53,147 bases of DNA from an uncultured Verrucomicrobiota bacterium (GTDB lineage Bacteria > Verrucomicrobiota > Kiritimatiellia > RFP12 > UBA1067). Below the pieces are notes generated by a model. The model was given only the letters and a program-made list of their open reading frames with translations. It was not told the origin of the DNA and did no database searches. The stretch is from NCBI GenBank assembly GCA_946610035.1, contig CAMOCC010000010.1, forward strand, positions 1-53,147, written 5' to 3'. Position numbers and translations under genes: made by a program. The stretch's first letter is position 1. Each line of letters begins with the position of its first letter. Shown here one piece after another: positions 91-42,153 of the stretch.

Positions 91-99
91 TGGTATAAT
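91..99 (+). promoter_or_regulatory. Extended -10 promoter TGGTATAAT
   Basis: TGG followed by a perfect TATAAT hexamer (94-99), the same extended -10 form seen before many genes in this window. A weak TTGCGG lies 18 bp upstream at 70-75. It could drive the secreted repeat protein at 361, giving a leader of about 255 nt. An ATG at 112, in frame with that gene, lies 12 nt downstream, but the sequence after it reads as repeat-derived low-complexity peptide. Confidence 0.5.
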
Positions 100-360
100 T
101 CGCGGCGCAAGATGAAAAGGATTTTCCATAACGTCTCGCGGAATGCGCAAATAATGCGCGTGGCGCGGCTGTACGGAAAAATTACCCCCCGCCCCGGAGC
201 CCGAGCCCGCCCCCGAGCCCGAGCAGTAATCCCGCCGCCCTCGGTTTTATCGCAGATACGCAGGGTTTTGCTTTGCCCTGCGTCTCTGCGCCTCTGCGAT
301 GAAAACCGCGCCGCAAGCCCCATCCCCGTCAATACAACCGCCGAAAGGGAACCTAAACAG
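100..360 (+). other. Non-coding leader with repeats before the InlB-repeat gene
   Basis: This stretch is open in the frame of the downstream gene, but its translation is arginine/proline-rich and repeat-derived, so it is treated as untranslated. It holds direct GAGCCCGAG-type repeats at about 196-228 and an imperfect hairpin at 251-290. Confidence 0.5.
251..290. repeat. Palindromic CGCAGA-type intergenic repeat
   Basis: A 15-nt arm (251-265) and its inverse (276-290) pair with one mismatch around a 10-nt T-rich loop. The left arm reads CGCAGATACGCAGGG. It looks like a REP-type intergenic palindrome, not a terminator: no gene ends here and no T-run follows. Confidence 0.5.
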
Positions 361-3300: not shown

Positions 3301-4275
3301 ACAGGAGGGATAATGATTGCAGCGTCAGCTAAAGTTGCGGCTAATGTGACATTATACGCACATTGGACGGAGAACCGTGGCAACTCTGGCGGCGGTAAAG
3401 ATGGAGGTCAGGGCGGCGGTTCTGGCGGCAGCGACATATCTGATCCCGTGACGCCGGGACATGGGTTCATAGAGGTAGAGGTAACGGACATCATCGCTCC
3501 ATATGAGGCGCCGAAGGCGGTGACGCTGCAAGGCGCGGTGTATGACGGCGACGGCGCCGTGGTGGGCGTCGTGGAGCTGAAGCTGGGCAAGGTGAACGCC
3601 ATGAAGAAGACGAGCAAGGTGTCCGGCTCGTTCACCGGGCTTGACGGCAGGAAGTCCACAATGAAGGCCGTGACGGTCGCAGGGGTGGACGGCTCGGCGC
3701 CCGCGACGGTTTCGCTGGCGGTCAAGGGACGAGGGACGATGACGGTCACGATCGGCGGCGACCAGTTCGCGGGCTCGCTTGGCGATTGGCACGTGCAGTC
3801 GGCGGACGTCGGCGGCGAATGGACCGGCGACGCGGCGGCAAGCGTCGTGGCGGACGACCTTTCGATGTTCGCGGGGACGGTGCTCGAGGAGCTTCTGCCG
3901 GTCGGCGACGGCGAGACGGTGAAGGCGAGCGGCGGCAAGTGGAAGTTCGACAAGGCCGCTGGCGTCAAGTGGGCCAAGCCGAAGAAGGGCGTGGCGCTGA
4001 CCGACCTCGACATCTACGACGAGGAGTCCGGCAAGGGGCTGGTCGTGGATGTCTCGGGCGGAAAGACCAACCTCTCCGCGATGAAGCTCGCCTACACTCC
4101 GAAGAGGGGCGTGTTCAAGGGGTCGTTCAAGGTTTGCGAGCTGCAGGGCGAGGGCAGGAAGACCAAGCTGAAGAAATACACCGTCAAGGTGAACGGCGTG
4201 GTGGTGGACGGCGTCGGCTCCGGCGAGGCCACGTGCAAGAAGCCCGCCCTCTCCTGGCCCGTAGAGGTCAGATGA
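361..4275 (+). CDS. Secreted InlB/CARDB/BACON multidomain protein
   Basis: A 1304-aa exported surface protein. The start at 361 is chosen because a signal-like segment follows, with a hydrophobic core around residues 30-42 ending LQA near 46. Visible in order: a CARDB-like domain (about 187-290), four Listeria-Bacteroides/InlB repeats (about 300-577, with FDANGG and GW hallmarks and YAVW-type ends), an unassigned aromatic-rich region (about 590-775), a BACON-like domain (about 780-860), two further InlB repeats (about 867-1002), a glycine-rich linker (about 1003-1024) and a C-terminal module (about 1040-1304). Such repeats usually mediate adhesion or carbohydrate contact; no catalytic domain is evident. 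The C-terminal module, with KKYTVKVNGVVVDGVG near its end, resembles a recurrent tail on exported proteins of this lineage. That is recalled and not searched; it may be a sorting or anchoring domain. No partner gene is adjacent. Confidence 0.8.
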   Translation: MKTKLRVAATISPTAMPRRGALPHAIASFRIFAMVACAMLTGELQAINWTLSEANNSYQDERIEATQNGGESDTFDVVVPAGTKAVVHVHVDNVTSHNTGGKTVYLMWNGGSEQLLSGQGASDSHTFTSNGSVTIGVRCSAGTHQVPHTRPITIGGKTIYSTYYTTEYWTYYQCAVTYSITISYESLLPDLKISPLMLSSEEAPVDKTVTLSFTVTNDGGRPAGEASVARVYVDDVQVGGDLPIGELAAGASEAKTLTLPRQVVGEHAVRVVVDATYRIEEVSENNNQATATLLSYERVPYTVRYDPNGGNGTMADQPFIAGTEQALRRNAFTRTDYVFKGWATEPAGEIAYEDGSLQKVLTYRRNGLVMLYAVWEAVPHTVAFDANGGTVTTETMTFSAVEPCGSLPVAYLDKNDMTSPVFVGWFTAPTGGVQVTEDSVIKGDCVIYAHYARPALKVCFDANGGAGTMADITAYSGIPTPLPRNAFTHAGYYFRGWGLTEGADIVSYKEGELWMGVEGATLYAVWEEETRHTHHFDANGGEGTMPDIVVTNDAPFTVPDCAFTKDGSVFWGWETNTAENITTYSATWKSAVELDAIARGGMQFATDDIDPWHVVEDGGQDVIQCVLTSAVVYVTNVYGQATYYIANRETGLYIQFPEEEGRYFYRFKWFYPNTMNFIWPIRFLYYDGKGWAKGDGWSSGTDWGDGYQAQTPTTWDGLIADSIRNGEDWSDWVNVSALDICERCKARWGKTKPPFCLETTYVEYSAPKPDEVALCFDPGVFVRTSYSMNGRASLMNIVVAPEAGWEASANADWLSITPCEGDLRHGVLALADNNTMDVRTGSVTITAQGTNYDISIIQAPGIASTVVTFDAQGGEIETNSVRYATGRAFGTLPTPIRQGYTFSGWYSARSGGEMVSAGTVVKDGLRALFARWSALSCTVTFDANGGSGGTTRTQNCDETLGALPTATRLGCVFDGWFTSATGGIMIAASAKVAANVTLYAHWTENRGNSGGGKDGGQGGGSGGSDISDPVTPGHGFIEVEVTDIIAPYEAPKAVTLQGAVYDGDGAVVGVVELKLGKVNAMKKTSKVSGSFTGLDGRKSTMKAVTVAGVDGSAPATVSLAVKGRGTMTVTIGGDQFAGSLGDWHVQSADVGGEWTGDAAASVVADDLSMFAGTVLEELLPVGDGETVKASGGKWKFDKAAGVKWAKPKKGVALTDLDIYDEESGKGLVVDVSGGKTNLSAMKLAYTPKRGVFKGSFKVCELQGEGRKTKLKKYTVKVNGVVVDGVGSGEATCKKPALSWPVEVR

Positions 4276-4493: not shown

Positions 4494-6386
4494 CTACAAG
4501 GTGCTAAGAAGGTCGTCTACGACTTCGGCTCCGCCGGTCACATCGAACTTGAAGAGGTCGATCTTGACGTTCACGGGTCCGGGCGAAACGTTGCGGTAGC
4601 GCGCATAGCGCCATCCGTCGGACGGATTGAGCCTGCTCTGCATCTCCCCGCCCCGGTTGTCCGTCGCGAGCTTCGTCCACGATCCGCCGTCCTTCGACAC
4701 TTCAATCACGCCAGCCTTCACTGCTTCATCGCCCAGTCGCGCGTGGAAGTAGTCCGTTGCCCATGTCTTCGGGACTGCGATGCCGAACGTTTCGCCAGCG
4801 GCGACACTGCGCGCCTCCATCACACGCGAGAGCGAGGCGTACTTTCCGTCCCTCGAAGCGACGAGCCCTTCCAGAGGCCTGGCCGTCGAAAACGCCCTCG
4901 GCACGTCCGCACTGCCCTTCTCCGCGCCGTCCTTCATCCGCCCCAGACGCGTGAGCGCGGCAACGGAAATCTTCTCGACGAGCGGACGCAGCTCGCGGGA
5001 CGACGCGACAGGCGGCCTGACATAACGACGGTCGGCGTCGAAGGTCGCAGCCTGGAACTTCTCGCGATGCCGCCGCGCCGACTCCGCGGCGGCGCGGCGC
5101 AGCGCGCGCATCCTGTCGACATCCTCCTGCGCCGCGGCGCATGTAGGCGCCTTGAGCAGCCTGATCGCGCAGACGCCCTGCCCCATCAGGAACTTCTCGT
5201 CCTCCAGCCAGCCCTCGATCTCCCATCCAAGGTCGTAGCGTCCTTTCGGAAGCTTCCTGTCAAGGACCTCGCATGCTTCATAAACTTCCCTGAACAACGC
5301 CGCGACCGCCTTGACTGTCTCGGCGGAAAGCTCGCCGTCCGCATCGAGCTCCGCGCGCGCCTTCGCGCAGAGAGGGGCGGCGCAGACGCTCTCCTCGCGG
5401 CGGTAGCCGTGAACGGTTGGCCCCTGGTCGGAGTTGTGCTCGGCGAAGACGCGCATCGCCTTCGCGACGGCCGGATCGGGATATATCTTCGAAAAGGACT
5501 CCTCCCAGGCCTTCTGCGAATTGAATCCGGACGGATCGGCGCACCACTTCGCGACTCCGTAGAGCGCGATCTTGCCGGCCTCGCAGTTCTCCATCGGATT
5601 GGAGACGAATCCGGCAACACGGCAGTCGTCGAGTCCGTATGCGCGGCCGAGAAGAAGGCTCGAGCGGCAGTAGTCGTTGACGGGCCAGTTCCACCAGATG
5701 AACGGCGGACGCCTGAAGTCCTGGGTAATCTTCGCGACGTCCTCGGCGCGTATGTCGGCGCAGATTCCCCTGCCGGTCCACATGATGTGCACCCTGGGGT
5801 CCAGCGCGGCGCCGAGCGCCTTCTGGTACGGATGGCCCGTGCCCCAATAGACGTTGGGGCACATTATGAGCGGACCGCAGTCGCCCTTCTTCAGGAGAAA
5901 GTCGTTCAGTATGCGGTTGCAGATCGCCGCATGCGCCGATGCATCGGCCCCGCCGAAATCGTCGAAGAAAGCGGCGAACCCCCTGAAGCCGCAATCGTAC
6001 ATCAACCCCAGCTTGGCAAAGAGCGCCTTGTAATCCTCCCCGCTGTCCTGTCGGAAGCCGTCTCCGAGATGGATGGCCCAGTACAGCGAAACGCCGTTCT
6101 CCTTCGCGCAGGCGAGCAGTCTTCTGAAGTCCGAGACTTCGGACTCTGGATACGGCTCGCGCCATTTTGCGTGGTGGTATGGATCGTCCTTCGGACCGTA
6201 GATGAACACGTTCATGTCCATCTCGCCCATGAACTTCAGCAGAGAGAGGCGTCCCTCCGTTCCCCACGGGCGTCCGTAGTAGCCCTCTACAACGCCGCGC
6301 ATAGGCACTGCATCCGCCGCGAAGGACGTTGCGGCGAACGCCGCGGCAGACGCGGCACATACGGCTCTAAGCAGTTTCATGGCCAT
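4494..6386 (-). CDS. Exported GH84 beta-N-acetylglucosaminidase
   Basis: A 630-aa GH84 (hyaluronidase/O-GlcNAcase-like) glycosidase expected to release N-acetylglucosamine from glycans outside the cytoplasm. A signal peptide ends near ATSFAADA. The GH84 barrel follows at once with VVEGYYGRPW, and the family's paired catalytic aspartates are visible as FFDD near residues 140-141. Later motifs FIWWNWPVND and YGLDD also fit. The additional N-terminal domain of larger family members is absent. Residues 540-630 resemble a carbohydrate-binding beta-sandwich. The start at 6386 has AGGAG 4 nt upstream; the ATG at 6380 gives 10 nt and is an alternative. It is a single gene behind its own promoter, convergent with the InlB-repeat gene and downstream of the giant-protein operon. 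Host glycan or mucin use is plausible. Confidence 0.88.
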   Translation of the reverse strand: MAMKLLRAVCAASAAAFAATSFAADAVPMRGVVEGYYGRPWGTEGRLSLLKFMGEMDMNVFIYGPKDDPYHHAKWREPYPESEVSDFRRLLACAKENGVSLYWAIHLGDGFRQDSGEDYKALFAKLGLMYDCGFRGFAAFFDDFGGADASAHAAICNRILNDFLLKKGDCGPLIMCPNVYWGTGHPYQKALGAALDPRVHIMWTGRGICADIRAEDVAKITQDFRRPPFIWWNWPVNDYCRSSLLLGRAYGLDDCRVAGFVSNPMENCEAGKIALYGVAKWCADPSGFNSQKAWEESFSKIYPDPAVAKAMRVFAEHNSDQGPTVHGYRREESVCAAPLCAKARAELDADGELSAETVKAVAALFREVYEACEVLDRKLPKGRYDLGWEIEGWLEDEKFLMGQGVCAIRLLKAPTCAAAQEDVDRMRALRRAAAESARRHREKFQAATFDADRRYVRPPVASSRELRPLVEKISVAALTRLGRMKDGAEKGSADVPRAFSTARPLEGLVASRDGKYASLSRVMEARSVAAGETFGIAVPKTWATDYFHARLGDEAVKAGVIEVSKDGGSWTKLATDNRGGEMQSRLNPSDGWRYARYRNVSPGPVNVKIDLFKFDVTGGAEVVDDLLSTL

Positions 6387-6531: not shown

Positions 6532-7464
6532 TCAGTCGAGGCGGATGCGGAAGAGGCCGAGCTCGCCGACCTTGTCGAGGTAGACCTTGCGCTCCTCAAC
6601 GTCCTCCGTCTCGTCGATGTACTTCCGCTCTCCAGAGGCGCGCTTCGGTTCGGAACGGTGCGGGTGGATGGCGAAGCCGTGCGCCGCATCCACGCGGTTG
6701 GTGCTACGCTCCACGGAATAGGCGAAGCCGTACACGGGCTTGAACCCGAGCTCCACCATGTCCGACCCGTCGTCCGCCTTGACGATCTTGAACGAGGTGA
6801 CCTTCAGCCCGGCCTCCTCCGCATTGAACGGATCCGTCCCCGCCAGGTACTCCTCGCGGTTCGACACGCCGTCGCCGTCGTAGTCCGCGTCGGGATTGTA
6901 GGACGCGCCGGACGCAATGTACGCCTGCCCCGTGCCCGGATTCCTGTACGTGCGCCCGTGCGCCTCCGCATACCGCACGTAGTCGTCGTCGATGCCGGGG
7001 ACGATCGTGTCGCTCATCAGCTTCAGGTCGAGGCGCGTGACGGACCCCGACTTCGCCGCCGGAAGCGACGTGGAGGCGTATGCCGTGCACATGGCGTCGC
7101 GCGAATCCACCTCGAAGACGAGCTCGTCCCCGACCGCCGCCGCGTTGGCGGACGCGGCGTCAGTCGTCATCGGAACCGCCACAGAGTAGTTGCACACCGT
7201 GTCCCCTTCGAATTCGCCGAGCTTCCCCCTGGCAAGGAGGACGCCGTTCTTGCGGACCCTCACCTCGGCGACTTCGCTGTACCTGTGCAGCCCCGCTCCG
7301 TCGTAGTCCTTGATCCGGCCCGTGTACACGCTCGGCGGCAGGGAAACCGCGACCGCCGGCTCCGCCGCCGCCGCGGAATGGAAAATGGAAAACGACAAAT
7401 GGATGATCGCCGCCGCGGCAACCAAGCCAATACTACGCTCAACTCCACATTTTACATTCTTCAT
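6532..7464 (-). CDS. Exported protein with thrombospondin-type-3 calcium site
   Basis: A 310-aa exported protein of unknown function. The start at 7464 is preferred because GGAGG lies 8 nt before it; a longer frame to 7485 would put the ribosome site inside the gene. A hydrophobic signal segment ends around HSAAAAEP. The central segment NPDADYDGDGVSNREEYL, followed by AGTDPFN, is a typical thrombospondin-type-3/dockerin-like calcium motif that in many exported PVC proteins joins domains. It is the last gene of the four-gene operon, 78 bp after the giant gene, whose own C-terminus carries a similar DTDHDGSVD motif. That suggests a calcium-dependent partner or accessory, which is inference. Confidence 0.65.
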   Translation of the reverse strand: MKNVKCGVERSIGLVAAAAIIHLSFSIFHSAAAAEPAVAVSLPPSVYTGRIKDYDGAGLHRYSEVAEVRVRKNGVLLARGKLGEFEGDTVCNYSVAVPMTTDAASANAAAVGDELVFEVDSRDAMCTAYASTSLPAAKSGSVTRLDLKLMSDTIVPGIDDDYVRYAEAHGRTYRNPGTGQAYIASGASYNPDADYDGDGVSNREEYLAGTDPFNAEEAGLKVTSFKIVKADDGSDMVELGFKPVYGFAYSVERSTNRVDAAHGFAIHPHRSEPKRASGERKYIDETEDVEERKVYLDKVGELGLFRIRLD

Positions 7465-7542
7465 TTTATGTCCTCCCTTTTCCATTTTCCATCCTGCTGC
7501 ACTTCCAATTATGCACTTTGCATTTCACCATTTGCATTCGCA

Positions 7543-10500
7543 TCAGTTTCCAGAATGCGAGTACGTCTTGAGCCCGAGCTTGATGTCCGTCACCCCGGGC
7601 TCGTCCACACTGCCGTCGTGGTCGGTATCCGCTCCGTTGATGAACGTGTCGAGCGCGGCTTCGCGGCTCTCGGCGGACCCGCCGAGGAGCTGTCCCGCCG
7701 GGATGATCATCAGCCACCTCGTGTTCCACGCACTGCGTCCGTACAGGCGCTTGTTCGCGCGGTCCGCGTCGTCGTCGTCGCCCGTCATCGCGCGGAAGGA
7801 CGGGATGCGCCTGATCTTCGCGGCGACGTCCCCGCCCGCCGTGTAGCCGGTGTAGGTCGGCGTCCAGTCCTCGTCGTCAAGCTCCGTCGAACCGATTTCA
7901 TACGGCGCGGGGATCACCTGGTCGAGCACATTGAAGGTCAGCACCCTTCCGTTCGCCCCTCCTCCCGGAACGCGCATCGAATCCGCGCCCGCCGGCACAA
8001 GGTACACGACGGGCGTCGCCGAGAGGGCCGCCGCTGGATAGCCCTCGAACTTCACGCCCGCCGAGGCGATCTTCGTCGCATAGTAGGACGAGTCGAGCGC
8101 ATGGTCGCCGGCTGCGAGCTCCCTGCCGAAGAAGTTCTTCGCGAAGTCTATCGTCGAGGAGAACGGAATCACCAGCGCCGGCTCCTTGGACGCCGTCAGG
8201 GCTCCGGTCTGCCCGGACGAGGCGGCCGGCTGGCAGAAGCGCTGGTACTCGGGCACGGACCTCAAGTCGGGCACGACGTACTTCGAGAGCTCCTTCCGCC
8301 AGGCGTAGTTGCCGTTCGTGCCGGACGATATGCGGAAGAGTTCGCGGCGAAGCGAGAACCACGTCGCGTTGCGGTCCGGATTGTTGATGCCGAGGCGCGG
8401 CTTCAGGACGAGATAGTTCGACTTCATCCGCGCCAGGATGTCCGCCAGCCCCGCGTCGCCGAGTCCGCCGCCGAGAACGGGCTTGCCGTCTGCGTCGAGC
8501 TTGCCGATGGCGCGCGCACCGACTATCTCGCCCTTGAAGGCGTCGCCGGACGCCTTGTCCGCCGACAGCATCCCCGTCTCGTAGTCGTACGCCTGCGCCG
8601 CCATGTAGACGTACTTCTGCGCAAGGTCGAAGGCGGCCTTGTAGCGCGTGAGCGCCGAATCCTGGACGTTCCTGAAGAACATGTCGTTGTAGCGCAGCTT
8701 GATGATGCGGTTCTCGCGCTGGGCGCGCGCGCCCTTGCGCGAGGCCTGGACGCGGTCGCCCTCCGCCGCCACCGTGTCGAAGTTCTCCGCCGCGGCGACC
8801 ATCGCCGCCCAGGCTGCGCGCAGCTCGCGAGCCGCCTCGCCGACGCCGCACACGAGATCGCGCGCCGACGCGTACGCCGACTCCTGCGCATCCGTCCAGC
8901 TCGCACCCTCCGCGGCCTCCTCGGCAGCGGTCTCGATCATATTCTGGACGTACTGGGCCTCCTCGATGAGGCCGTCGAACACCCCCTTGAGGACGATGGC
9001 CTGCTCCTTGGCCCCCAGCGACGCCGTGCCGGAGGCGATGTACGCCGCCAACCCCGGGATGATGACGGCCGTCATTCCCACGCCGACGAGGGACATGCTG
9101 CCCGCCCTGCCGGCGTAGTTGTCCAAGCCCTCGGCGGCTTCCTTTATCGTATCCATGGCGATCGAGGAGTTCTTGAGCGCCATCAGAATCGTGTCGGTGG
9201 CGTACTTGCCCCTTATCTTGGCGAGTTCCGCATCGTGGGACGAGCTCCTCTTCGAGTACAGCGAATCTATCCAGTCGATCTCCGTCGACAGCCTGTCGAT
9301 CTTGCCGTTGTAGTTCTCCAGCGCGTTCCTGCAGGCGACGTAGGCGAGGATGTAGTCCGTGTAGGCGTCCTGGATCCTGCCGGCGGACTGGCGCTTGCCG
9401 GTGAAGGACGCGGGCTTGTTGACGAGGCCGTTGGCGGACATCTGGTACGTGAGGACGTTCGTCGAGGAGTTGACCGCCGTACTCTCGGCGAAGGACTTCA
9501 TCGACTCGTACTTCCACTTGTCCGTCGACTTGTCGTAGGTGACCACGGCGACCGGCTTGATGTCCGCGCCGGAGAGGCCGAACGCCGCGAGGTCCATGTA
9601 CATGTAGTGGTAGAGGTCGGGTCCCGTGTAGCCCTGCGGATATGTCCCGGCGGGGCCGATGTCGTCCGCATAGGGCGTGCCGTATATCTCGATCAGCTGG
9701 TTCTGGAAATCGGCCTCGGACGCCGCCGCCTGCTCCTCCTCGTTGAGCTGGGTGTTCGTGACCTGCCTGAGATGCGTCGCCGCCTCCTGGGCGCGGTCGA
9801 GGACCTTCGCAGCGTTGGCGAGCGCCGTCTCGGCGCGGGCGGCGATCTGCTCGAAGTGCGAGCCTGCGTCGTCGTTGTCGCCCTCGCCGTCGCCCGGAGC
9901 GAGGTCGAACGGAACGGCCGACTCGGAGAGCCCGAGCGGATTCATCCCCGCGTCTGCCTTGTCGAGGCTCTTCTGTATCGCGGACGCGGCGGAGGCGATT
10001 TCGCCGAGCGAGGACGCCGTGGAGCGGTTGATGCGGAGGAGTCCGTCGTCGTCGAAGTCTATGCCGATTCCGCTTTCGGGCACGCCGACCCACTCGCCGC
10101 CGTAGATGCTCCAGATGCAGTCTCCGCCCGGGGTCTCGTCCGCGAGCGTCTCGCCGCCGGAGGAGTCAGCCACGCACCGCGTGTAGGCCAGGAGGTCTTC
10201 GTGTCGGGGGGTCACGTAGTTGCGTCCGGCGACGAGTTCGGCGTCCGTGCGTGAACCGCGCCACAACCTGATCTCGGAGATGTAGCCGGCAAGTCCCCTT
10301 CCCATCATGATCGCCGCATCGTCGAACGTCTGCGTTCCCAGCGTCTGCTCGGCGATCTTCGTTCCGTCGGACGCGAAGGCGCGGAGCGTCAGGAGGCCGT
10401 TTTCGTCCGAATGCAGCGCGAAGAGCGTCCCCGCCGCGCTGGGAACGCCGGCGGCGCTCGCCATGTCCGCCTGGCCGTAGACGAGGTAGTACTCCACGGA

Positions 10501-13500
10501 TTCCGCCATGTTCGTAGTCACGGTGGCGACGTCCAGTTCGTTCGTCTCCACGACTACGTGTTCATTGGTCGTCGTCGAGGACGCGAGGTACAGCCTGTTC
10601 AGCGCGAGGGTGGCGGCGAGGCCGCCCTCCCCGTCCACATCCAGCAAAAGCGCCGGCTCCGTGGCGTAGACCTCTCCGGAGTCGGCGAGCGGATGCGGGA
10701 GGACTTCGCTCTGTCCGCCCCGGATCTCCAGAAGCGAGCGGTTCGCGAACATCTCGGTCGGCGACAGCTGGAACTCGAGCGTCCAGTCGCCGTCGAGCGG
10801 CGCTTCGTCCATTTCGATGTATGTCTCGCCGTCGAACCTGAGGCGGTAGAAGTCGCCCGCCTTCTCGGCGGCCGGGAGCATCGAGTTCGCGACCATCCAG
10901 TTCATGACGGCGCCGACTCCGCCGCGCGTCGCCCATTCGCCGTATCCGAAGGCGCGCTCCTCGTCGCCGTCGAGGTACCCGGCGCCGGACGCGCCGCCGT
11001 TCTCCTTCCACGACTTCATCACCGTGCGGTCCACGACGAGCGCGGAGGTTTCGGCGACCTTGGCCGCTATCTCCGCGAAGCGCTCCTCGTCGAAGTAGTC
11101 CACGTCGACCACGTTGTCCGCGACGTTCATCTGCATCTGCGACACGGACCACGAGAAGTACGGGTTCCTGAGCAGGCGGTACCACACGCCGAGGGCGGAC
11201 AGGTAGTGCCCGTAGGCGTCGCCGTGTCCCTGCGGATAGTGGAGCGCCGCGTCGTTCTCGTCGATGATAGCGTCGTTGTTAGAGGAGAAGATGTTGTAGT
11301 TCATCGCGTATGCGACCTCGCCCGCCGTGATGCCGCGCGTGTAGTTCCACACGAGGCGGTTGTAGAACGGGGCGACGGTGACGGACGGGTTGTTCGCGCC
11401 CGTCCTGCCGCGCAGGAGCGCGAGCTCCTCGTCGAGGAGCGACGGCACCTGGTTGTCGAAGCAGAAGAGCCCCGTGTGCTCCGCGCCGTAGTCGATCTGG
11501 TCGCCCCGCGCCGAGCTTTCGCCGAACGTCGCGCCGAAGCCGACCGTCGGGTTGAGCGCGTCCGCGTACGCCTCGTTGCCGAGCACCATGTAGAGGTCCG
11601 CGAGGCGCTCCGCCGCGAGGAGGAGCTGCTTGTTCGCGTCGGTGTCGTTCAACCCGAGCGCCAGGGACATCGACTCCGCCTTGTTCAGGAGCGTCTGGTA
11701 GAGTTCGACGAGTCCGACTTCGTTGAGGTTGTCCTGGTTCAGCGCGACGTCTCCCGTCCACGGCCTGCCCGCGGCCTCGAGCATCGTAGCGCGCAACTCG
11801 GCGGCGTTCTCGTAGAGGTCGGTCATCCGCTGGGTGAACGGGGTGACGTTGTTGACGCAGCGCTGGATCCAGCCCTCGGCGAGGGCCGGGCCGCACCACG
11901 CGCTCCACTCGTCGCCCATGACCGCGTAGGCGTCAGTCCCCTCCTTGGCGCGGTAGCGCATCACGTAGTACGTGTTGACGAGGTTCGCGAGCGTGTCGCC
12001 CTGCTGTCCGATCGTGAAGCGGGTGAGGCCCGCCGTCGGTTCGCCCACGGCCTCGTAGTCGTTCGCGTAGTCGGTCGGCATCCGCCCGTCGTCCTCCGGC
12101 GTCGCCTTCTTCCACTCGAAGACGAAGTCGTCCGCCTTGCCGGCGAGGGATTCGGTGTAGACGATGCCGAGCTGCTGGGAAAGGAGGTTCAGCGGATCCT
12201 CCCTCGTCACGACGCGTCCCGCGTAGTAGCGGTTGGTGACGGCGAAGACGTGCATGGAGACGGCGTCGCCGTCCTTGACGCCGTTCGGACCGTCCACCGG
12301 CGCGTCGTTCTCGATTATGGTCACATAGTTGGTCGCGCCCATTGCGGTGAGGGCGTAGTGGTCGCGGGGGGTGTAGGAGACGGACGGCTTCACCGCGTCG
12401 CGTCCGGAGCCGGACCCGGCGTTCAGGACGGACGGCTCCACCGGCGTCGTCGGCAGCGTCGAGATGAGCCTGTCCCATTCCGCCTTCTTCGGATGGTCCA
12501 CCCTGACGAGCGCCTTGATCGCCTCGAGTTCGGACGAGTTGAGCGCGTTCGGCCAGAGGATGTCGCCGCCGGCGTTGGACTCCATCACGCCCTGGAACGA
12601 AACGCAGTTCGCCGGCGCGAGGTTTGCGTTCACGTAGAAGCGGTCGCTCACGGACGGCGGGAGGTCCGGGAATGTGTACTTGCCTGCGCGAAGCTTCACC
12701 GAGCCGTCCGCCACGTCGAACCCGAACGCCGCGACGAGGTCCGCCGGCGTCGCGTACGACGAGTCGCCCGTCGTGCGCACGACGGTCGGGTCCCAGAGGA
12801 GCACGGTACTGCCGGAGTCCTCCGGCCACACGACGGCCACCGACTTCGAGTTCCACACCTCGGGAAGTCCGTTCGCCGCCTTGGCGAGCGTCTCGCCGAT
12901 GCGCATCGTCTCGACGTTCCTCGGCCATTCGACGGTCCACCGCCACGCGGCCGGGTCGCCGGCGAGCGGATCGTCCCCGTCGAGCGAGGCGAGCCACGGA
13001 ATCGGCGTGCCGAGCGCGGGATTGGCCGCGAGGGACGGGAAGTCGAAGCCGTCCTGGTTCGGATAGAACATGTGGATGTCGAGCGTGCCCGATGCGCGAG
13101 ACCATATCTGGTTCTTGCGGTCCGGCCACGCAATGGCGGGTTCGCCCGCCTTGACCTCCCACCAGTCGTTGGTGAGCCACGGATTGGCGAAGAGGTCCAG
13201 CGGATGCGGACCAGGCAGGATCGTCCCCGCCGTCGCGACGCCGGCGAGCGCCGTGTACATGTCGTTGGTGACGAGGACGGAGAACGCCCTCATCGCCTTC
13301 CTGCCGTCCTTTTCGCATTCGACGAGCACGAACGGCTCCGAGGAGTCCGCCGTGTTGAGGTCGGTGCGGAGCGCCCATGGGTAGTATCCCTGGATCGAAT
13401 CGCCGCCGATGAAGGCGTGCTCCTCGTTCGGATTGTAGCCGACCGCGCCCCTGACCGCCTGGCGGTAGACGACAGGCTTCGTGTCGGACTCGAACAGCCC

Positions 13501-16107
13501 CGTCCCCTTCACAGGCGCGCCGGGCGATTCCCGCAGCACCATGTAGGCGAAGGTGTCGTCGCCGGACACCGCCTCCGTCGCGAAGCGGAGACTGGTCCCG
13601 CTGACCGGCTCGAGGTCGCCGTCGGGGAAGTCGAAGTACATGGAGAGCGCAAGGTCCGAGAATCCCTCGACGGAATAGAGTCCGTTGGAAACGGCCTCGG
13701 CGGAAGGCACGGCGGCGGCGACAGCGAGTCCGTCGAGCGCGAGCCCGACCGGCGCTGGCAGATCGTCGCCGGGCGACCCGACGACGTTGTACTCGATGTA
13801 GCCCGAATAGTCCATCTGGGGCGCGACGGCCGCGGCGACGGACCGTCCGTCGACATAAGCCGTCCAGTTGGTGCCGTCCATGGCGAAGACGATGCGGTGC
13901 CAGCCCTCCGCAGGCGACGCCGGCGAAGACGGTGGCAGCGTCGCGGCGATCGTCGCCGTCGTGTCGCCGGCGCCTCCCGTAAGCGTGTAGCCGACCGTTC
14001 CGTCCGCCGCGACGGAGGCGTCGACGAAGAGCGAGAACGGCGGCGAGCCGCCTTCGCCGGATTCGTATGCACCGTAGGCGCCCAGCGTCAGGACGCGGCC
14101 CGTCGTGTTGGTCGCGCACGCCTCGGCCTTCGCCCAGAAGGCGACCGTGCCGCCGTGTCTGTTGAAGCAGCGGGCGTCGGGCATGAGCATGAAGGAGTTC
14201 GTTGCGGCGATGTAGAGCGAATGTCCGCTCTCGTACACGCTCTCGGCCGCGCCGCCGCGGGCGGAGGCGAGCACGATCTGCGGAACCTGGTCCGCCTGCG
14301 GCCACACTATGCGATAGCGCTGCGCCAGGCACGGGAAGTAGACTGCGGACGGCATGCCCTCCTTGCGGACGCTCATGTACCAGTGCATCTCCAGCGCCTC
14401 GTTGGTGGAGGAGGCGTTGACTCCGTAGACGACGCTCTGGAAGCCGTTTGAGGCCGTGGTCCAGTCGTAGTAGAGGTTCGGATTGTAGTTGTCGCCGGAA
14501 TGGGCGAGGTCGAGGTATCCGGGGACGGAGGCGTCGATCACGGGATTGTAGCTTTCGGTGGTGCCGTCGACTGCGCCGCCGCGCGGGGTGATCTCCGTTC
14601 CGACGAACCACTCCTCCTCCTCGAGCGTGAAGCAGTCGCTGTCGGTGCGGTTGACGGTGCGCACGGTCTGGAAGAACACGTCGTCCGCAAGGCTCAGCTT
14701 GAGGAACGAGATTCCGTTCGTCCTGGTCGTGAACAAGTTGTTGTCGGGTGCGAGGGCGTGTCCGTTCGGCACCTGGAACTTGCAGAGCTCGGCCTGGTAG
14801 TCGGACGGGATCTTCACATGGTCGCCGGCGATGAGCAGAGCGGGGTGCGGACTCCAGTCCGCCGAGTACTGGCAGCGCTCGAACGGCCACTGCACGCCGT
14901 ACGGATCCGACTCCATCCAGTACACGTCGATGCGCCACGGCGAGTCCTTTGTGTCCCGCAGCGGGAACACCATGCCGTTCTTCGGCGAATAGGAGTGGCT
15001 CCCCCTGTGCTGGTAGTAGTAGTCGCCGAACTCGTCGTCCGCCGCGGTGGCGTTGTCGATGGGCGCGGGGACGAGTCCGTCGGGGTTGTACCCGGTGATG
15101 TAGGGCTCTATCGGCTCGCCGATGACGGCGTTCACGGTCTCCACCGAAGGTTCGCCCACCTCCACGACCTGAAGGTGCTTGAGCGTCGTGTACGAGCCGG
15201 AGTCGTAGTAGGCGAGGATGAACTGTCCGGACAGCTGCCCCAGGGCCGAAAGCGTCTCGGCCTCGGGATCGTAGTAGACGCCCTTCACGACGACGTTCGT
15301 CTCGGTTACGCGCTGTCCGCCGACGTCGCGCGTACGCTCCCCGTACTCGGGTACGACGAGCGAACCGGGGCCGTAGAGCTTCACGAACTTGCCGGAGAGC
15401 GAGATCACCGGCGCGTTCCACGGGCTCTCCGTCCAGAACATCCTGTACGGGCGTCCCTTGACGTTGCCGGAGACGACGTACGTCATGTCGTTCGTCGCGC
15501 CGCCCGACATGATCCAGCGGAAGGTGAGGTTGCCGCCCGTCTGCACGTAGACGGCCATGCCCTTGTTGTCGAAGATGAATTCAGTCCGCTCCGTCGCGTT
15601 CGAGGCGTACTCTTCCCATGTCGCGTTCCAGTCGACGCCCTCCGGCGTCGGCAGCGCGTCGCCGAGCCACAGCTGCGGCTGGATGCGCTCGACGGAGAAG
15701 CCGGCGACGGACTCCTCAAGCGTGAACCTCTGCAAGCCCGGGGTGTTCGCGGCGGAGCTGTAGCGCGTTCCGACAGCGACGAAGTTGGTGACCGCCACGC
15801 TGTTGGTGACGGTTTTGTAGACGACGGTGTCCCACCAATGACTCGAGCTGGTCGGATTGCCCTTCTTGACCAGCCGCATCTCGACTTTAGGCAACGTGTC
15901 GATGCGTCTTGCGTCGTGGCTGATCGGCGCGAGCGACGCCGAAACGCTCGCGACGGCGTTCGAGGCGAGCCAGGCGTTCCGCGCAGGGTCCGTCGTATCG
16001 CGCACGATCGGCGCCGTCGGCACGGCGAGTGTGTAGTTCCCCGCCGCGACTGCAGCCGGCATGCAAAATGCCGAAAGGAAAACGCAAAATGCAAGTCGTC
16101 GTTTCAT
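7543..16107 (-). CDS. Giant exported LamG/helical protein, 2854 aa
   Basis: Signal peptide at residues 1-22 (cleavage near AAVAAG), with a GAAGGGGG ribosome site. Visible: a first concanavalin/LamG-like domain at about 632-836 (GTVAFWAKAE, then EGWHRIVFAMDGTNWTAYVD); a tryptophan-rich middle with GWIQRCVNNVTPF followed by a helical, repeat-like LADLYMVLGNEAYADAL segment (about 1400-1700); a second LamG-like domain at about 1752-1977 (LLEIRGG, EIRLWRG); a long alpha-helical stretch at about 2020-2590 containing one glycine-rich hydrophobic segment; and a beta-rich C-terminus (about 2600-2854) ending with an acidic DTDHDGSVDEPG calcium-type motif. No catalytic signature is recognised. The order lectin, long helices, beta C-terminus loosely recalls toxin-complex A subunits, but I see no decisive motif. 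It sits third in an operon of four exported proteins, 50 bp after the tail-collar gene. I recall similar large hypothetical proteins in PVC bacteria; function unknown. Confidence 0.75.
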   Translation of the reverse strand: MKRRLAFCVFLSAFCMPAAVAAGNYTLAVPTAPIVRDTTDPARNAWLASNAVASVSASLAPISHDARRIDTLPKVEMRLVKKGNPTSSSHWWDTVVYKTVTNSVAVTNFVAVGTRYSSAANTPGLQRFTLEESVAGFSVERIQPQLWLGDALPTPEGVDWNATWEEYASNATERTEFIFDNKGMAVYVQTGGNLTFRWIMSGGATNDMTYVVSGNVKGRPYRMFWTESPWNAPVISLSGKFVKLYGPGSLVVPEYGERTRDVGGQRVTETNVVVKGVYYDPEAETLSALGQLSGQFILAYYDSGSYTTLKHLQVVEVGEPSVETVNAVIGEPIEPYITGYNPDGLVPAPIDNATAADDEFGDYYYQHRGSHSYSPKNGMVFPLRDTKDSPWRIDVYWMESDPYGVQWPFERCQYSADWSPHPALLIAGDHVKIPSDYQAELCKFQVPNGHALAPDNNLFTTRTNGISFLKLSLADDVFFQTVRTVNRTDSDCFTLEEEEWFVGTEITPRGGAVDGTTESYNPVIDASVPGYLDLAHSGDNYNPNLYYDWTTASNGFQSVVYGVNASSTNEALEMHWYMSVRKEGMPSAVYFPCLAQRYRIVWPQADQVPQIVLASARGGAAESVYESGHSLYIAATNSFMLMPDARCFNRHGGTVAFWAKAEACATNTTGRVLTLGAYGAYESGEGGSPPFSLFVDASVAADGTVGYTLTGGAGDTTATIAATLPPSSPASPAEGWHRIVFAMDGTNWTAYVDGRSVAAAVAPQMDYSGYIEYNVVGSPGDDLPAPVGLALDGLAVAAAVPSAEAVSNGLYSVEGFSDLALSMYFDFPDGDLEPVSGTSLRFATEAVSGDDTFAYMVLRESPGAPVKGTGLFESDTKPVVYRQAVRGAVGYNPNEEHAFIGGDSIQGYYPWALRTDLNTADSSEPFVLVECEKDGRKAMRAFSVLVTNDMYTALAGVATAGTILPGPHPLDLFANPWLTNDWWEVKAGEPAIAWPDRKNQIWSRASGTLDIHMFYPNQDGFDFPSLAANPALGTPIPWLASLDGDDPLAGDPAAWRWTVEWPRNVETMRIGETLAKAANGLPEVWNSKSVAVVWPEDSGSTVLLWDPTVVRTTGDSSYATPADLVAAFGFDVADGSVKLRAGKYTFPDLPPSVSDRFYVNANLAPANCVSFQGVMESNAGGDILWPNALNSSELEAIKALVRVDHPKKAEWDRLISTLPTTPVEPSVLNAGSGSGRDAVKPSVSYTPRDHYALTAMGATNYVTIIENDAPVDGPNGVKDGDAVSMHVFAVTNRYYAGRVVTREDPLNLLSQQLGIVYTESLAGKADDFVFEWKKATPEDDGRMPTDYANDYEAVGEPTAGLTRFTIGQQGDTLANLVNTYYVMRYRAKEGTDAYAVMGDEWSAWCGPALAEGWIQRCVNNVTPFTQRMTDLYENAAELRATMLEAAGRPWTGDVALNQDNLNEVGLVELYQTLLNKAESMSLALGLNDTDANKQLLLAAERLADLYMVLGNEAYADALNPTVGFGATFGESSARGDQIDYGAEHTGLFCFDNQVPSLLDEELALLRGRTGANNPSVTVAPFYNRLVWNYTRGITAGEVAYAMNYNIFSSNNDAIIDENDAALHYPQGHGDAYGHYLSALGVWYRLLRNPYFSWSVSQMQMNVADNVVDVDYFDEERFAEIAAKVAETSALVVDRTVMKSWKENGGASGAGYLDGDEERAFGYGEWATRGGVGAVMNWMVANSMLPAAEKAGDFYRLRFDGETYIEMDEAPLDGDWTLEFQLSPTEMFANRSLLEIRGGQSEVLPHPLADSGEVYATEPALLLDVDGEGGLAATLALNRLYLASSTTTNEHVVVETNELDVATVTTNMAESVEYYLVYGQADMASAAGVPSAAGTLFALHSDENGLLTLRAFASDGTKIAEQTLGTQTFDDAAIMMGRGLAGYISEIRLWRGSRTDAELVAGRNYVTPRHEDLLAYTRCVADSSGGETLADETPGGDCIWSIYGGEWVGVPESGIGIDFDDDGLLRINRSTASSLGEIASAASAIQKSLDKADAGMNPLGLSESAVPFDLAPGDGEGDNDDAGSHFEQIAARAETALANAAKVLDRAQEAATHLRQVTNTQLNEEEQAAASEADFQNQLIEIYGTPYADDIGPAGTYPQGYTGPDLYHYMYMDLAAFGLSGADIKPVAVVTYDKSTDKWKYESMKSFAESTAVNSSTNVLTYQMSANGLVNKPASFTGKRQSAGRIQDAYTDYILAYVACRNALENYNGKIDRLSTEIDWIDSLYSKRSSSHDAELAKIRGKYATDTILMALKNSSIAMDTIKEAAEGLDNYAGRAGSMSLVGVGMTAVIIPGLAAYIASGTASLGAKEQAIVLKGVFDGLIEEAQYVQNMIETAAEEAAEGASWTDAQESAYASARDLVCGVGEAARELRAAWAAMVAAAENFDTVAAEGDRVQASRKGARAQRENRIIKLRYNDMFFRNVQDSALTRYKAAFDLAQKYVYMAAQAYDYETGMLSADKASGDAFKGEIVGARAIGKLDADGKPVLGGGLGDAGLADILARMKSNYLVLKPRLGINNPDRNATWFSLRRELFRISSGTNGNYAWRKELSKYVVPDLRSVPEYQRFCQPAASSGQTGALTASKEPALVIPFSSTIDFAKNFFGRELAAGDHALDSSYYATKIASAGVKFEGYPAAALSATPVVYLVPAGADSMRVPGGGANGRVLTFNVLDQVIPAPYEIGSTELDDEDWTPTYTGYTAGGDVAAKIRRIPSFRAMTGDDDDADRANKRLYGRSAWNTRWLMIIPAGQLLGGSAESREAALDTFINGADTDHDGSVDEPGVTDIKLGLKTYSHSGN

Positions 16108-16157
16108 GGCTCAACCCCCTTCCTGACTGTCCACAAACTCCAAGTGCCGCCGTCTTC

Positions 16158-17144
16158 TCACTTGACTCTCATTATGTACGCAAGCTTGTAGTAGGGCGGG
16201 AGGATGGAGAATTTGCTGCCGCTGCCGGTGGAGGAGGTTCTGTAGATCTTGGCGGAGCCGGAGGTGCTGGAATCCGCATCGTAGCCGCCATTGTCGGCGT
16301 ACTTGGTCGTGGAGCCGTATGATTTGTCGCGTCCCTCAAGCTGGTCGTCGCCGAAGTAAAGGTGGTTGTGGGAAGGCAGATTGGACACGCTAAGCTGCAC
16401 TTCGGCGCTGCCGCCGGTCTGGCCGCGGTTGTTAGGCGCCGACCCCATCACGAACCTGTCCAGGAGATTGGGCGTGTTGTTCTTCCCGTCGCAGAGCGCC
16501 CAGCCGTCGGGGACATTGGATCCGCTCCAGAGGATGATGCCGCCGACGGGGATGGTGCCGTAGCCGGAGAGCGTCCCGGTATTGCCGACCGAGAGGTTGC
16601 CGTTCACCGTGACGCCGTTGTTGAAGGTGGCCTGCTGGGTGAAGGTCGCCTTTCCGGCGACGTCGAGCACCGCCGTCGAGACGTCCGCGAGCGTCGCCTT
16701 GCCCGCAACCGTGAAGTCGCCGTCCGCCTTGCTCACGTCAGCTGCGTAGCCGGCGTACGGCACGGACAGTATCTTCTGGCGCGGCGCGATTTCGCCGGAG
16801 GAGCCTTCGACGGTGAGCCCGACGTAGAGGCTGCCGCCGCGGGCGGACTTGAGCGCGTCCGCAAGCGACGCGTTCGTCGCATCGCCCAGCGCCGAGCCGT
16901 TCGCGTCCGACAGCTCCACGTTGAAGAGCCCCTGCGCGTCGAGCAGCACCGCGAGGGAGCGTCCCCAGAGGGCCGTCCCGCCCGACGCCTGGCCGTAGAG
17001 GCGGAACGCGATGACCTGCTGCGCCTGCTGGAGGACGGCCCCCTGGTCGTCCCTCAGCACGCCCTGGTAGGCGATGGACGTCTCGACCGCCTGCGCGGCG
17101 AACGCCGCGAGGAATGCAACGACTGCTGTTATTGTCTTTTTCAT
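16158..17144 (-). CDS. Exported phage-tail-collar domain protein
   Basis: A 328-aa protein. The start at 17144 has GAGG 8 nt upstream and gives an immediate signal peptide (AAFAAQAVE). The mature N-terminus (TSIAYQGVLRDDQGAVL, then LYGQASGGTALW and ADGLFNVEL-like spacing) is a beta domain common at the start of exported fibre-like proteins. A short repeat region with VAGKATL and VAGKATF phrases follows (about 180-215). The C-terminal third is a tail-collar/microcystin-dependent-protein domain: IPVGGIILWSGSNVPDGWAL, NLLDRFVMG, LPSHNH and a final ILPPYYKLAYIM. In phages this domain forms trimeric fibre tips. Here it carries a secretion signal and sits between two large exported proteins with no capsid, tail or terminase genes nearby, so a prophage is unlikely. 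It is second in the operon; an extracellular fibre or adhesin role is inferred. Confidence 0.8.
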   Translation of the reverse strand: MKKTITAVVAFLAAFAAQAVETSIAYQGVLRDDQGAVLQQAQQVIAFRLYGQASGGTALWGRSLAVLLDAQGLFNVELSDANGSALGDATNASLADALKSARGGSLYVGLTVEGSSGEIAPRQKILSVPYAGYAADVSKADGDFTVAGKATLADVSTAVLDVAGKATFTQQATFNNGVTVNGNLSVGNTGTLSGYGTIPVGGIILWSGSNVPDGWALCDGKNNTPNLLDRFVMGSAPNNRGQTGGSAEVQLSVSNLPSHNHLYFGDDQLEGRDKSYGSTTKYADNGGYDADSSTSGSAKIYRTSSTGSGSKFSILPPYYKLAYIMRVK

Positions 17145-17193
17145 AGTGGTTCCTCTTTCCTTGTTGTTCCTGAATTTCATCCGACGATGCGCA

Positions 17194-18948
17194 TCAGCGC
17201 ACCACCTCCGCGTTCATCATGACGCGCCTCGCCGTGAAGTCGCCGGTCGCCTTGACCGGACCCTGGCGGCGCACCCCGGTGTATATCCACGTGAGGCGCC
17301 CCGCGAGCCGCTCCTGCGGCGTCCACGCCGTCCCGCCGCCTGCGTCGAAGTCGAGCACGACCGCTCCGCCGATCGTGAAGCGCTCGGGCTTCACCGAGCC
17401 TACGTAGTTCGTTGCGTTGTCGCCGTCCGGCGCGGACGTCTCGAAGTCCATCCTCTTGTTGTCGAAGAGCGGATGCAGCGCGTGGTGGAACGGATTCGAC
17501 GGCGAGTCGGGTCCGATGGCGTAGGTGAAGCCCAGCGCCGCGGACGCATCGCCGAACGTCCCCGAAGAGGCCTCGACCATCCCCATGTCGACCGGCAGGA
17601 CGGCCGAGGAGAGCCGCCGCGAATAGGCGACGCCAGTCGGCGGGGTGGCGTCCGGACCGTACAGAGTCTCCGTTACCGACCCGTCGGACGCGGCGGATCC
17701 CGCCACCGTGACGCGCTGGACGAGCCAGGCCCGACCCTCCGCATCGACGTGTACGTAGAACTTAACCGGCATAATGCCTCCCGCGGCCACGTCGTCGACG
17801 CTCTTCGTGTCCGACGACTGCCACGAAACGGCGTCGAGCTTCGCCTGCACGCACCAGAGGCCCTGCGGCCAGGCGACTGTCGGCTTCGCGTCCACCGCCG
17901 AGACGCCGATGTCCGCCGCGAATGCGGTGTAGCCGGCCATCGCCGGATTGCCCTCCTCTATGTGGAGGACGCCGCCGAGCGCTGCGCCGGACCCCGCGAG
18001 CTTCGTCCGGTCCAGTGCGATCGCGACGCTCCACGTGTCGCCCGTAGACAGCACACGCATGAGCGTGTTGGTGAGGCCGTCCCACGACCCCATGACGTCG
18101 GCGGAGTCGGATTCGCGGTAGAGGAGGTTCGGACGCGTCTCGCCGCCCGCGGAGTCGCGGTAGGAGACGGTGACGTACTTGGCCGCCGCGCCGTCGTTGC
18201 GGATTTCAACCGTCTGGACCGTCCCGTCGGCGCCGAAGTCGAGTCCGTCGCGCGGGAAGACGTGGAGCGGACCCGACCAGTCGCTTACGCACGTACCCGG
18301 CACGAGCAGCACCCCGCCGTCGGATATCGTCGCGGCGGACGCCTGGTGGCGGCCGAAGCCGCCGCCGGCCGCGATTATGGACTGGTCTCCGTCCACGGTG
18401 TTGCATACGACGTAGTATGGGCCGTCCCCGGCGACCGAGGGGCATCCGGCGAAGTAGTCCGCCGCCTTGACGCTCGCAGTCCCCTCCGCAAGCCTCACGC
18501 CGACGTAGTTGTAAGTCTCCCTTTCGTTGCTCTTGTGCCAGGCGATGCGCGGGGCGGACGGAGCGCCGAGGATCTCGACGGCGACGGCCGTCTCGTTGGT
18601 GCCGTGGCAGACGAGCACGGTGTCCGCCATGAGCCTTCCCAGGGTGGAGGTGTGGGGTTCGGCGCGCATCCACACGGCGAACGGCGAGATGACGGTGTCC
18701 TCGCCGGTCAGACCTCCGGCGGAATCCGCAGTGACGCGGAATGCGCGCGCGGAGTAGGCGCTCACGGAGTCGACGGGCCACGAAGCGAACACTTCGTCCG
18801 CCGTCCCCTCCGGGGCGACGCTCACGTAGACCGCGCTCCAGCCGGGCTCGATAGTGATGGTCTGGCGCACGGACCCCGCCTCAAGGCGAAGCGCCAGCCC
18901 TGCGACAAGCGCAACCGCGCCCGCAACCAGGATATTCGTGTTTCTCAT
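17194..18948 (-). CDS. Exported protein of unknown function, operon leader
   Basis: A 584-aa protein. The start at 18948 is chosen because the longer frame (18978) would begin inside the -10 box. A signal peptide spans about residues 1-25. The mature protein begins VRQTITIEPGWSAVYVSVAP and continues with VFASWPVDSVSAYS; I recall this IEPGW...VY opening from exported PVC proteins but know no function. The sequence is beta-rich throughout, with segments such as VEIRNDGAAAKYVTVSYRD that suggest immunoglobulin-like sandwiches, and no transmembrane segment after the signal. It is the first gene of the four-gene exported operon, 49 bp before the tail-collar gene. The ribosome site is weak (GGAAAG about 14 nt away). 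Confidence 0.7.
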   Translation of the reverse strand: MRNTNILVAGAVALVAGLALRLEAGSVRQTITIEPGWSAVYVSVAPEGTADEVFASWPVDSVSAYSARAFRVTADSAGGLTGEDTVISPFAVWMRAEPHTSTLGRLMADTVLVCHGTNETAVAVEILGAPSAPRIAWHKSNERETYNYVGVRLAEGTASVKAADYFAGCPSVAGDGPYYVVCNTVDGDQSIIAAGGGFGRHQASAATISDGGVLLVPGTCVSDWSGPLHVFPRDGLDFGADGTVQTVEIRNDGAAAKYVTVSYRDSAGGETRPNLLYRESDSADVMGSWDGLTNTLMRVLSTGDTWSVAIALDRTKLAGSGAALGGVLHIEEGNPAMAGYTAFAADIGVSAVDAKPTVAWPQGLWCVQAKLDAVSWQSSDTKSVDDVAAGGIMPVKFYVHVDAEGRAWLVQRVTVAGSAASDGSVTETLYGPDATPPTGVAYSRRLSSAVLPVDMGMVEASSGTFGDASAALGFTYAIGPDSPSNPFHHALHPLFDNKRMDFETSAPDGDNATNYVGSVKPERFTIGGAVVLDFDAGGGTAWTPQERLAGRLTWIYTGVRRQGPVKATGDFTARRVMMNAEVVR

Positions 18949-18976
18949 AATTATTAGAAATCTTTCCAGTGACTGC

Positions 18977-19006
18977 ATTATACCAAACTCGGCGCTTTTG
19001 AGTCAA
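18977..19006 (-). promoter_or_regulatory. Promoter of the four-gene exported operon
   Basis: On the minus strand TTGACT (19001-19006), 18 bp, then TGG-TATAAT (hexamer 18977-18982). The -35 lies inside the first unit of the adjacent 33-bp tandem repeat. The predicted leader is about 22 nt. Confidence 0.65.
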
Positions 19007-19098
19007 TTCCCAAACGGATGTCCGGCGGATCTGAGTCAATTCCCAAACGGATGTCCGGCGGATCTGAGTCAATTCCCAAACGGATGTCCGGCGGATCT
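19000..19098. repeat. Three perfect tandem copies of a 33-bp unit
   Basis: Units at 19000-19032, 19033-19065 and 19066-19098 are identical. Each starts GAGTCAATTCCCAAACGG and contains TCCGGCGGATCT. The array fills the space between the DUF3034 terminator and the operon promoter, and its first unit supplies the -35 hexamer. There are no spacers, so it is not a CRISPR array. It reads open on both strands only because 33 is a multiple of three. Confidence 0.9.
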
Positions 19099-19102
19099 GA
19101 AC

Positions 19103-19148
19103 AAAAAAACGCCGGTCGGGTCCGACCAAGGAAGCGGACCGACCGGCG
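19103..19148 (-). terminator. Rho-independent terminator of the DUF3034 gene
   Basis: A stem of about 14 bp (19110-19124 with 19135-19148, one bulge) around a 10-nt loop, followed on the minus strand by seven T (19103-19109). It starts 18 bp after the stop codon. Confidence 0.88.
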
Positions 19149-42123: not shown

Positions 42124-42153
42124 GTGCGGTTTCGGGAACCGCATCGTCAATCA

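Follow-up and report, generated by a model that had tools for sequence, protein, structure and literature searches.

Two described systems resemble parts of the locus reported here. MAT proteins form surface fibres in which a constant head is combined with diverse tips; one of these tips was shown to bind prey glycans (PMC10769870). The A subunits of Tc toxins, as described in PMC11435725, possess a helical pore domain with hydrophobic loops, followed by a TcB-binding domain. I compare with these a run of four consecutive genes, hereafter g1 to g4, found on contig CAMOCC010000010.1 of an uncultured Verrucomicrobiota bacterium (GCA_946610035.1), a stretch of 53,147 nucleotides that is referred to as the window. 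The four genes constitute a conserved, co-inherited set with a mostly fixed order, and their products are as follows:

17194..18978, minus strand: g1, predicted exported protein of 594 aa (584 aa from the ATG at 18948), the closest genomic partner of g3
16158..17180, minus strand: g2, MAT-like fibre protein of 340 aa (328 aa from an inner ATG), with head, stalk and collar/tip
7543..16107, minus strand: g3, giant putative scaffold protein of 2854 aa, of which residues ~820–2854 are common to the most distant relatives
6532..7485, minus strand: g4, predicted exported protein of 317 aa (310 aa from an inner ATG), with a TSP3-type calcium motif at residues 201–222

A preliminary description of the window, made from the sequence alone, had reported this minus-strand run, and it is real: all four open reading frames (ORFs) are present and unbroken. 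The gaps that it gave (49, 50 and 78 bp) are reproduced when its inner ATGs are used (584, 328 and 310 aa, with g3 at 2854 aa), while the longest ORFs measure 594, 340, 2854 and 317 aa for g1 to g4.

A scan of named genomes with a g3 alignment confirmed at least 506 relatives, the best 80 of which were kept, giving 75 loci. With loci added from further relatives, the set comprised 83 distinct g3 proteins with a length of 1800 aa or more; 31 of these had less than 3.5 kb upstream or less than 1.5 kb downstream and were left out, and the remaining 52 had enough flanking DNA. A neighbour was counted if it was on the same strand and within 7 kb of g3, and g2 and g4 were counted only next to g1 or g3, with no search for either elsewhere. 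By these rules g3 is accompanied by g1 in 47 of the 52 loci, by g2 in 44 and by g4 in 47. Loci L032–L058 had been picked through g1, and L135–L142 since g1 and g3 were both near. Because some loci were chosen through g1, the 43 found via g3 alone provide the fairer test, and there g1 is present in 38, g2 in 37 and g4 in 39. Across a larger set of 113 loci, which includes repeats of some contigs, g4 was found in 71, g2 in 72, g1 in 84 and g3 in 99, the last two partly by choice; as a control, six genes flanking the cassette in the window recur in only 0–1 of the 112 other loci.

The order along transcription is that of the window (g1-g2-g3-g4) in 27 of the 52 loci, the rest showing other orders. 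Eight loci read g4-g1-g2-g3, seven g1-g3-g4 and four g2-g3 only; g1-g2-g3, g2-g3-g4-g1 and a double cassette were found once each, and three loci show other arrangements. Three of the four g2-g3-only loci begin inside a protein that elsewhere follows g4-g1-g2, and for this reason look like cut cassettes.

The association extends to whole genomes. In 387 genomes of the phylum, the profile of the g3 C-terminus matches 56 and that of g1 matches 58, with both present in 55 genomes, g3 only in one, g1 only in three and neither in 328 (Fisher p 6e-62, uncorrected for shared ancestry). Within 15 kb of 58 of the 74 g3 places, g1 is found on the same contig and strand, in 55 cases upstream; since these searches scored two to three candidates per genome, copy numbers are lower bounds. 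Homologues lying mostly apart from each other had been named beforehand as the pattern that would speak against one system, and for g1 and g3 the opposite was found. The two genes also diverge in step, with a Mantel correlation of their distances of 0.887 over 58 cassettes, a value reached in 0 of 2000 permutations; for g4 and g3 the correlation is 0.858 over 49 cassettes, computed without permutation, and shared ancestry is left uncorrected in both values. Nine cassettes were examined singly, and in six of them (L061, L097, L077, L069, L118, L107) the closest g3 and the closest g1 belong to the same foreign cassette or to near-identical ones. Two of these six come from the SIG88 genome, which has three cassettes whose g3 proteins are just 35–43% alike. 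The divergence in step and the shared nearest cassettes therefore indicate that the cassettes mostly evolve as units. The preliminary description had proposed that the four products may build one extracellular system; what stands of this is that the four genes are conserved and inherited together, and that their products are predicted to be exported.

Most named carriers bear the label Kiritimatiellae, Lentisphaerae, Verrucomicrobia or uncultured bacterium; the record titles place many of them in rumen or gut, and the cultured Pontiella sulfatireligans is among them. The genes are also carried by Lysobacterales (the cultured Chiayiivirga flava, Aquimonas and two metagenome-assembled genomes, MAGs), by one Nitrospirae MAG, and by MAGs labelled Neomarinimicrobiota and Akkermansia, these labels being taken as given and unchecked. 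In Lysobacterales and Nitrospirae the cassette has the form g1-g3-g4: g2 was not detected there, and the place of g4 is taken by longer proteins that resemble it in the N-terminal part. This is the widest form, which the preliminary description had overlooked. Genes for PpiC-like foldases are found near the cassette in seven loci (L131, L133, L127, L125, L120, L130, L121), mostly of the form lacking g2, and on the other strand in L121; the only one scanned, from L131, has a Rotamase match just over the cut-off. The Lysobacterales loci L131, L133, L127 and L125 also possess a large protein, which in L131 has beta-propeller and DUF11 domains.

Three loci (L045, L046, L055) have tandem cassettes, reading g3-g4-g1-three g2-g3. 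A second cassette type consists of g4-g1-short g2, followed by a glycine-rich InlB-like large protein (L003, 2–1645; L047, 1–2940). I considered this as a sub-type without g3 and dropped it: L116, L117 and L124 begin inside the same InlB-like protein and run into g2-g3, and contigs therefore seem to break within that protein. In the genome of the window itself, further copies of g1 and g3 are found on contigs C87 and C94, respectively, which were not seen in the preliminary description. C87, as the left part, and C94, as the right, may be one broken cassette.

All four window products have a signal-peptide-like start when judged by eye, in agreement with the preliminary description. A home-made signal-peptide rule is positive in 66 of 73 g1, 92 of 96 g2, 63 of 76 g3 and 70 of 74 g4 homologues, but the rule is loose, as 140 of 400 random ORFs also pass, and is no replacement for a proper predictor.

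The g2 protein can be divided into three parts:

17117-16731, minus strand: head, residues 22–150, matching the MAT N-terminal model
residues 151–205: stalk
16565-16161, minus strand: collar/tip, residues 206–340, matching phage collar and tail-fibre sequences

For the tip, the strongest match is to the tail-collar fibre family PHROG 1800 (E 2e-26), followed by the solved tail fibre 9qgo in the PDB (E 1.2e-9), while the Collar domain in the Pfam scan is below cut-off (E 2e-4). The PDB tail fibres matched (9qgo, 9nxk and 6ov6) were deposited with three chains, though the matches are to their sequences only. The head matches NF053851, the MAT N-terminal model, over residues 22–150 (E 3.1e-6), the right place for the conserved beta-rich domain of ~130 aa that directly follows the signal peptide in MAT proteins; its score of 27.1 bits is below the curated cut-off of 60, which serves as criterion for the MAT superfamily. 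At E≤1, 14 of 27 g2 relatives match this model, the best with 1.7e-7. In 15 collar-bearing g2 proteins compared to that of the window, the tip is 16–57% identical and the collar 44–71%, and the tip is less conserved than the head in 14 of the 15. There are one to three g2 copies per cassette, with differing tips; neither this nor the MAT-like head had been recognized in the preliminary description.

The giant g3 protein has no curated family match for its core in the libraries searched. Its main features are:

13822..14190, minus strand: LamG module, residues 640–762 (PF13385, E 3.5e-7), poorly conserved
10063..10875, minus strand: second variable insert, residues ~1745–2015, where a fraction of 0.44–0.81 of relatives align
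8713..9330, minus strand: predicted helical hairpin, residues 2260–2465 (Chou-Fasman and hydropathy)

The profile matches of the Lysobacterales relatives begin at position ~815. Conservation is uneven, with the LamG and insert blocks 20–34% identical versus up to 70% in the core. Residues 1401–1700 are very conserved (61–70% identity), as is, to a lesser degree, the C-terminal block 2501–2854 (54–62%). For the LamG region, the conservation profile gives an identity of 0.34 in block 601–700 and 0.20 in block 701–800, and the variable insert is absent in some relatives, being skipped by the profile matches in L045, L046, L052, L055 and L056. With its LamG region, the g3 profile additionally hits a 4qvs chain named "S-layer domain-containing protein" (E 2.6e-5). 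The preliminary description had missed the conserved scaffold in the C-terminal half and its predicted hairpin, in which helical arms at residues 2260–2331 and 2359–2465 flank a hydrophobic tip at 2332–2358. The helices were predicted by the crude Chou-Fasman method, averaged over 53 sequences; within the last 799 residues, hydropathy in 15-residue bins peaks at 2341–2355. The region 2260–2465 may thus be a membrane-active hairpin. Profile searches with the g3 C-terminus against the PDB returned mainly generic helical chains and chance matches.

The g4 protein contains a single calcium motif (TSP3_bac, PF18884, E 9.5e-6), in which D201, D203, D205, G206 and E212 are invariant across 20 aligned relatives. 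No match was found for g1 in Pfam, NCBIfam or the PDB, and PDB profile searches from g1 and g4 gave nothing useful. At the level of sequence, then, the fibre-like nature of g2 (PHROG 1800, PDB tail fibres), the LamG module of g3 (PF13385) and the calcium motif of g4 (PF18884), all proposed in the preliminary description, are borne out.

From the linkage and these features, it is on balance probable that g1–g4 encode one exported surface or secreted apparatus for contact or adhesion. In such an apparatus g3 would be the giant scaffold, and its core, with g1 and g4, would form the constant part, g1 most likely as a dedicated partner of g3 and g4 as a calcium-stiffened one. The LamG module, the variable insert and the g2 fibre tips would be the fast-changing contact surfaces. 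The MAT-like head of g2 probably anchors the fibre on the apparatus or on the cell surface, with the collar tip pointing outward. The apparatus would most likely be located on, or shed from, the outer surface, and bind glycans on other cells, in host mucus or on particles. Less certain is that the helical hairpin of g3 might enter the membrane of a target, in the manner of Tc-type A subunits; membrane perforation is possible.

Several observations weigh against a contact apparatus. Residues 2201–2400 of g3, of constant length, vary as much (15–27% identity) as the modules presumed to make contact. The distribution of the genes is patchy, g1 being present in 15 of 35 genomes of the same genus. 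Since the cassettes of Lysobacterales and Nitrospirae lack g2, the core can do without the fibre. The nearest g1 and the nearest g3 differ in three of the nine cassettes tested (L114, L063, L096), and shared ancestry, as stated above, may be part of both the co-occurrence and the distance correlations.

Among the alternatives, the one that survives best is a Tc-like machine for perforation or delivery, where g3, as a scaffold distantly similar to the A subunit, binds target glycans via its inserts and sends its hairpin through a membrane, and g1 or g4 replaces the missing B/C cocoon. It draws on one further feature:

8560..8781, minus strand: g3 residues ~2443–2516, with weak likeness in some relatives to PF18276, the TcB-binding domain of the Tc A subunit (profile positions ~2–86)

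PF18276 leads all families in g3, matching eight of 53 C-terminal sequences (best E 0.0096) versus two for the next families. In 58 genomes of the genus, six of the 11 weak hits are in g3, all at window residues ~2443–2516, and in the 387 genomes of the phylum eight of 45 sub-threshold hits are in g3, all 387–407 residues past the start of the C-terminal match, even though g3 represents an estimated ~0.04% of the DNA searched. These 14 hits are thus at one site (E 0.001–0.26); a further hit, in G141 (C21), is probably in another g3, and was left unverified and uncounted. The predicted helical arms, hydrophobic tip and conserved C-terminus also follow the order of the A subunit, as given in the available part of PMC11435725. 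On this analogy, it is possible that g3 works like a Tc A subunit.

However, none of the hits in g3 is over the cut-off. No genome of the 58 in the genus has a PF18276 hit over cut-off, and among the 387 in the phylum only G361 does, which has no g3 match. The window's own g3 has no PF18276 match, nor do any of ten distant g3 proteins scanned singly (four from Lysobacterales, one from Nitrospirae and five from Verrucomicrobia/Kiritimatiellota, including Pontiella), and non-g3 proteins match the same stretch of the profile (positions 20–97). In the opposite direction, profiles built from g3 found no Tc A subunit among PDB sequences and none in G361, which has true ones, the search being without a positive control. 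The neuraminidase-like domain PF18413 gave five weak matches in 20 g3-carrying genomes, none in a known g3 place, and PF12256, the middle domain of the TcB partner, was found in 0 of 20 g3-carrying genomes at E≤0.01; furthermore, g3 has a signal-peptide-like start. A classical Tc holotoxin is unsupported by the PF12256 and PF18413 results, and I reject the reading of g3 as a Tc toxin; the broader Tc-like machine seems to me conceivable though doubtful. A more elaborate version of the contact apparatus borrows from it: an exported machine whose A-subunit-like scaffold has glycan-binding modules of its own and exchangeable MAT-like fibres, and which perforates or injects into neighbouring cells without a TcB/TcC cocoon and with g1 and g4 as new partners. 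I regard this proposal as unlikely, though not negligible. Tc A-subunit domains over cut-off do occur in the same phylum, in G361 (C36 and C38, E down to 2.9e-114).

Glycan capture for feeding, in which LamG and fibres hold plant or mucin polymers at the surface for secreted enzymes, would agree with the LamG module and with the rumen or gut origin of many carriers. A gene for a GH84-type beta-N-acetylglucosaminidase (NAGidase, PF07555; window 4494–6386), just downstream of the operon, also points this way, but a GH84 gene is beside the cassette in 0 of the 112 other loci. Library scans detected no recognisable transporter or enzyme domain in g1–g4, and the hairpin would be left unexplained; feeding is therefore an unlikely purpose. 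A structural layer or sheath of the cell envelope, built from g3 with the other three products as accessories and having no target, is more improbable still. The giant size of g3, the predicted export of all four products, the occurrence of more than one cassette in some genomes and the S-layer name of the 4qvs match are in its favour, while many close relatives and most of the phylum lack the cassette, and its variable tips and lectin-like module suggest outward recognition. That four unrelated exported proteins are neighbours by chance has as its sole support that no known system has such a make-up, and is ruled out, to near certainty, by the linkage counts and genome co-occurrence, along with the divergence in step and an order that is kept in different families and phyla.

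A phage or plasmid origin of g3 was also considered, and is unsupported: the C-terminal 799 aa had no match in plasmids or in 50,697 phage records, a pattern scan of viral contigs gave 58 candidates of which none was confirmed, and no phage gene or domain was identified in ten neighbouring window proteins.

The four genes probably form one operon. The DNA in front of g1 shows the following elements:

18977..19006, minus strand: sigma-70-like promoter TTGACT-18-TATAAT with extended -10, matching 11 of 12 consensus positions
18999..19100, minus strand: tandem array of three perfect 33-bp repeats overlapping the operon promoter; every copy ends in TTGACT, a -35-like hexamer
19111..19129, minus strand: terminator-like hairpin 3' of the upstream DUF3034 gene, from a sequence scan

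There is thus one good promoter-like site 5' of g1, as had been claimed, and a second, weaker one (9 of 12) before g4, at 7491–7463. Shuffled sequences contain 1.3 ± 1.3 such sites, and the promoter count of two is therefore by itself no better than chance; terminator-like sites in the region number nine, against 7.2 ± 2.9 in shuffles. The inner ATG of g1 (18948) is the likelier start, because the longer one falls at the -10 box, and for g2 and g4 the inner ATG has a better ribosome site than the longer start. A -10 follows only the last copy of the 33-bp repeat, and a 30-base part of the unit is found in the genome in these three copies only (≤3 mismatches). The number of copies may vary, and so tune expression of the operon. 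No known RNA was detected in the window at gathering score.

Elsewhere in the window, positions 1–4275 encode a 1424 aa protein with six Listeria-Bacteroides repeat stretches and CARDB and BACON domains, and positions 43964–52339 a giant ORF of 2791 aa with a passenger-associated transport repeat (PATR) and fn3, which is unmatched by the g1–g4 profiles. A short ORF at 42107–42496 spans tandem repeats of 15–51 bp (42160–42399), which by eye I take to be of the lysine/alanine-rich, histone-H1-like kind. At 25407–29305, a DUF4340 protein adjoins an ABC-2 permease with an ABC_transp_aux domain, a pair that resembles gliding-type ABC transporters.

No published description of such a cassette was found in the full-text literature, which was queried with indirect terms and covered few subscription papers. 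I rate g1–g4 as new as a gene system, whose function may yet prove a familiar one, such as adhesion. The g3 protein is found in 56 of 387 genomes of the phylum (about one in seven), yet g1 and the g3 core are outside the curated families of the libraries searched. If the proposed contact apparatus is correct, it would account for the way in which little-known bacteria of gut and aquatic habitats attach to, exploit or combat other cells. Cultured gammaproteobacterial carriers such as Chiayiivirga flava, with the g1-g3-g4 form, open the system to direct testing.

Compared with known systems, g3 differs from a Tc A subunit in its signal-peptide-like start, in its partners g1 and g4, and in that TcB and neuraminidase-like domains were not found. 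It is like one in being giant, with inserted beta modules, a predicted helical hairpin with a hydrophobic tip and a conserved C-terminal end, and in the PF18276 resemblance, weak and at a fixed site, of some of its relatives. Surface proteins with thrombospondin type-3 motifs or LamG share the motif of g4 and the LamG of g3, modules that are generic and do not define a system. Residues ~176–340 of g2 resemble the collar and tail-fibre tips of phages (PHROG 1800, 9qgo, 9nxk, 6ov6). Set against the MAT fibres of Bdellovibrio bacteriovorus, g2 is much shorter and its head match is under the curated cut-off (27.1 of 60 bits); it is encoded beside g3 and/or g1 in the loci seen, and the word "operon" is absent from the text of the MAT paper (PMC10769870). 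Like these fibres, g2 nonetheless combines a signal-peptide-like start, a MAT-head stretch, a stalk and a phage-type tip.

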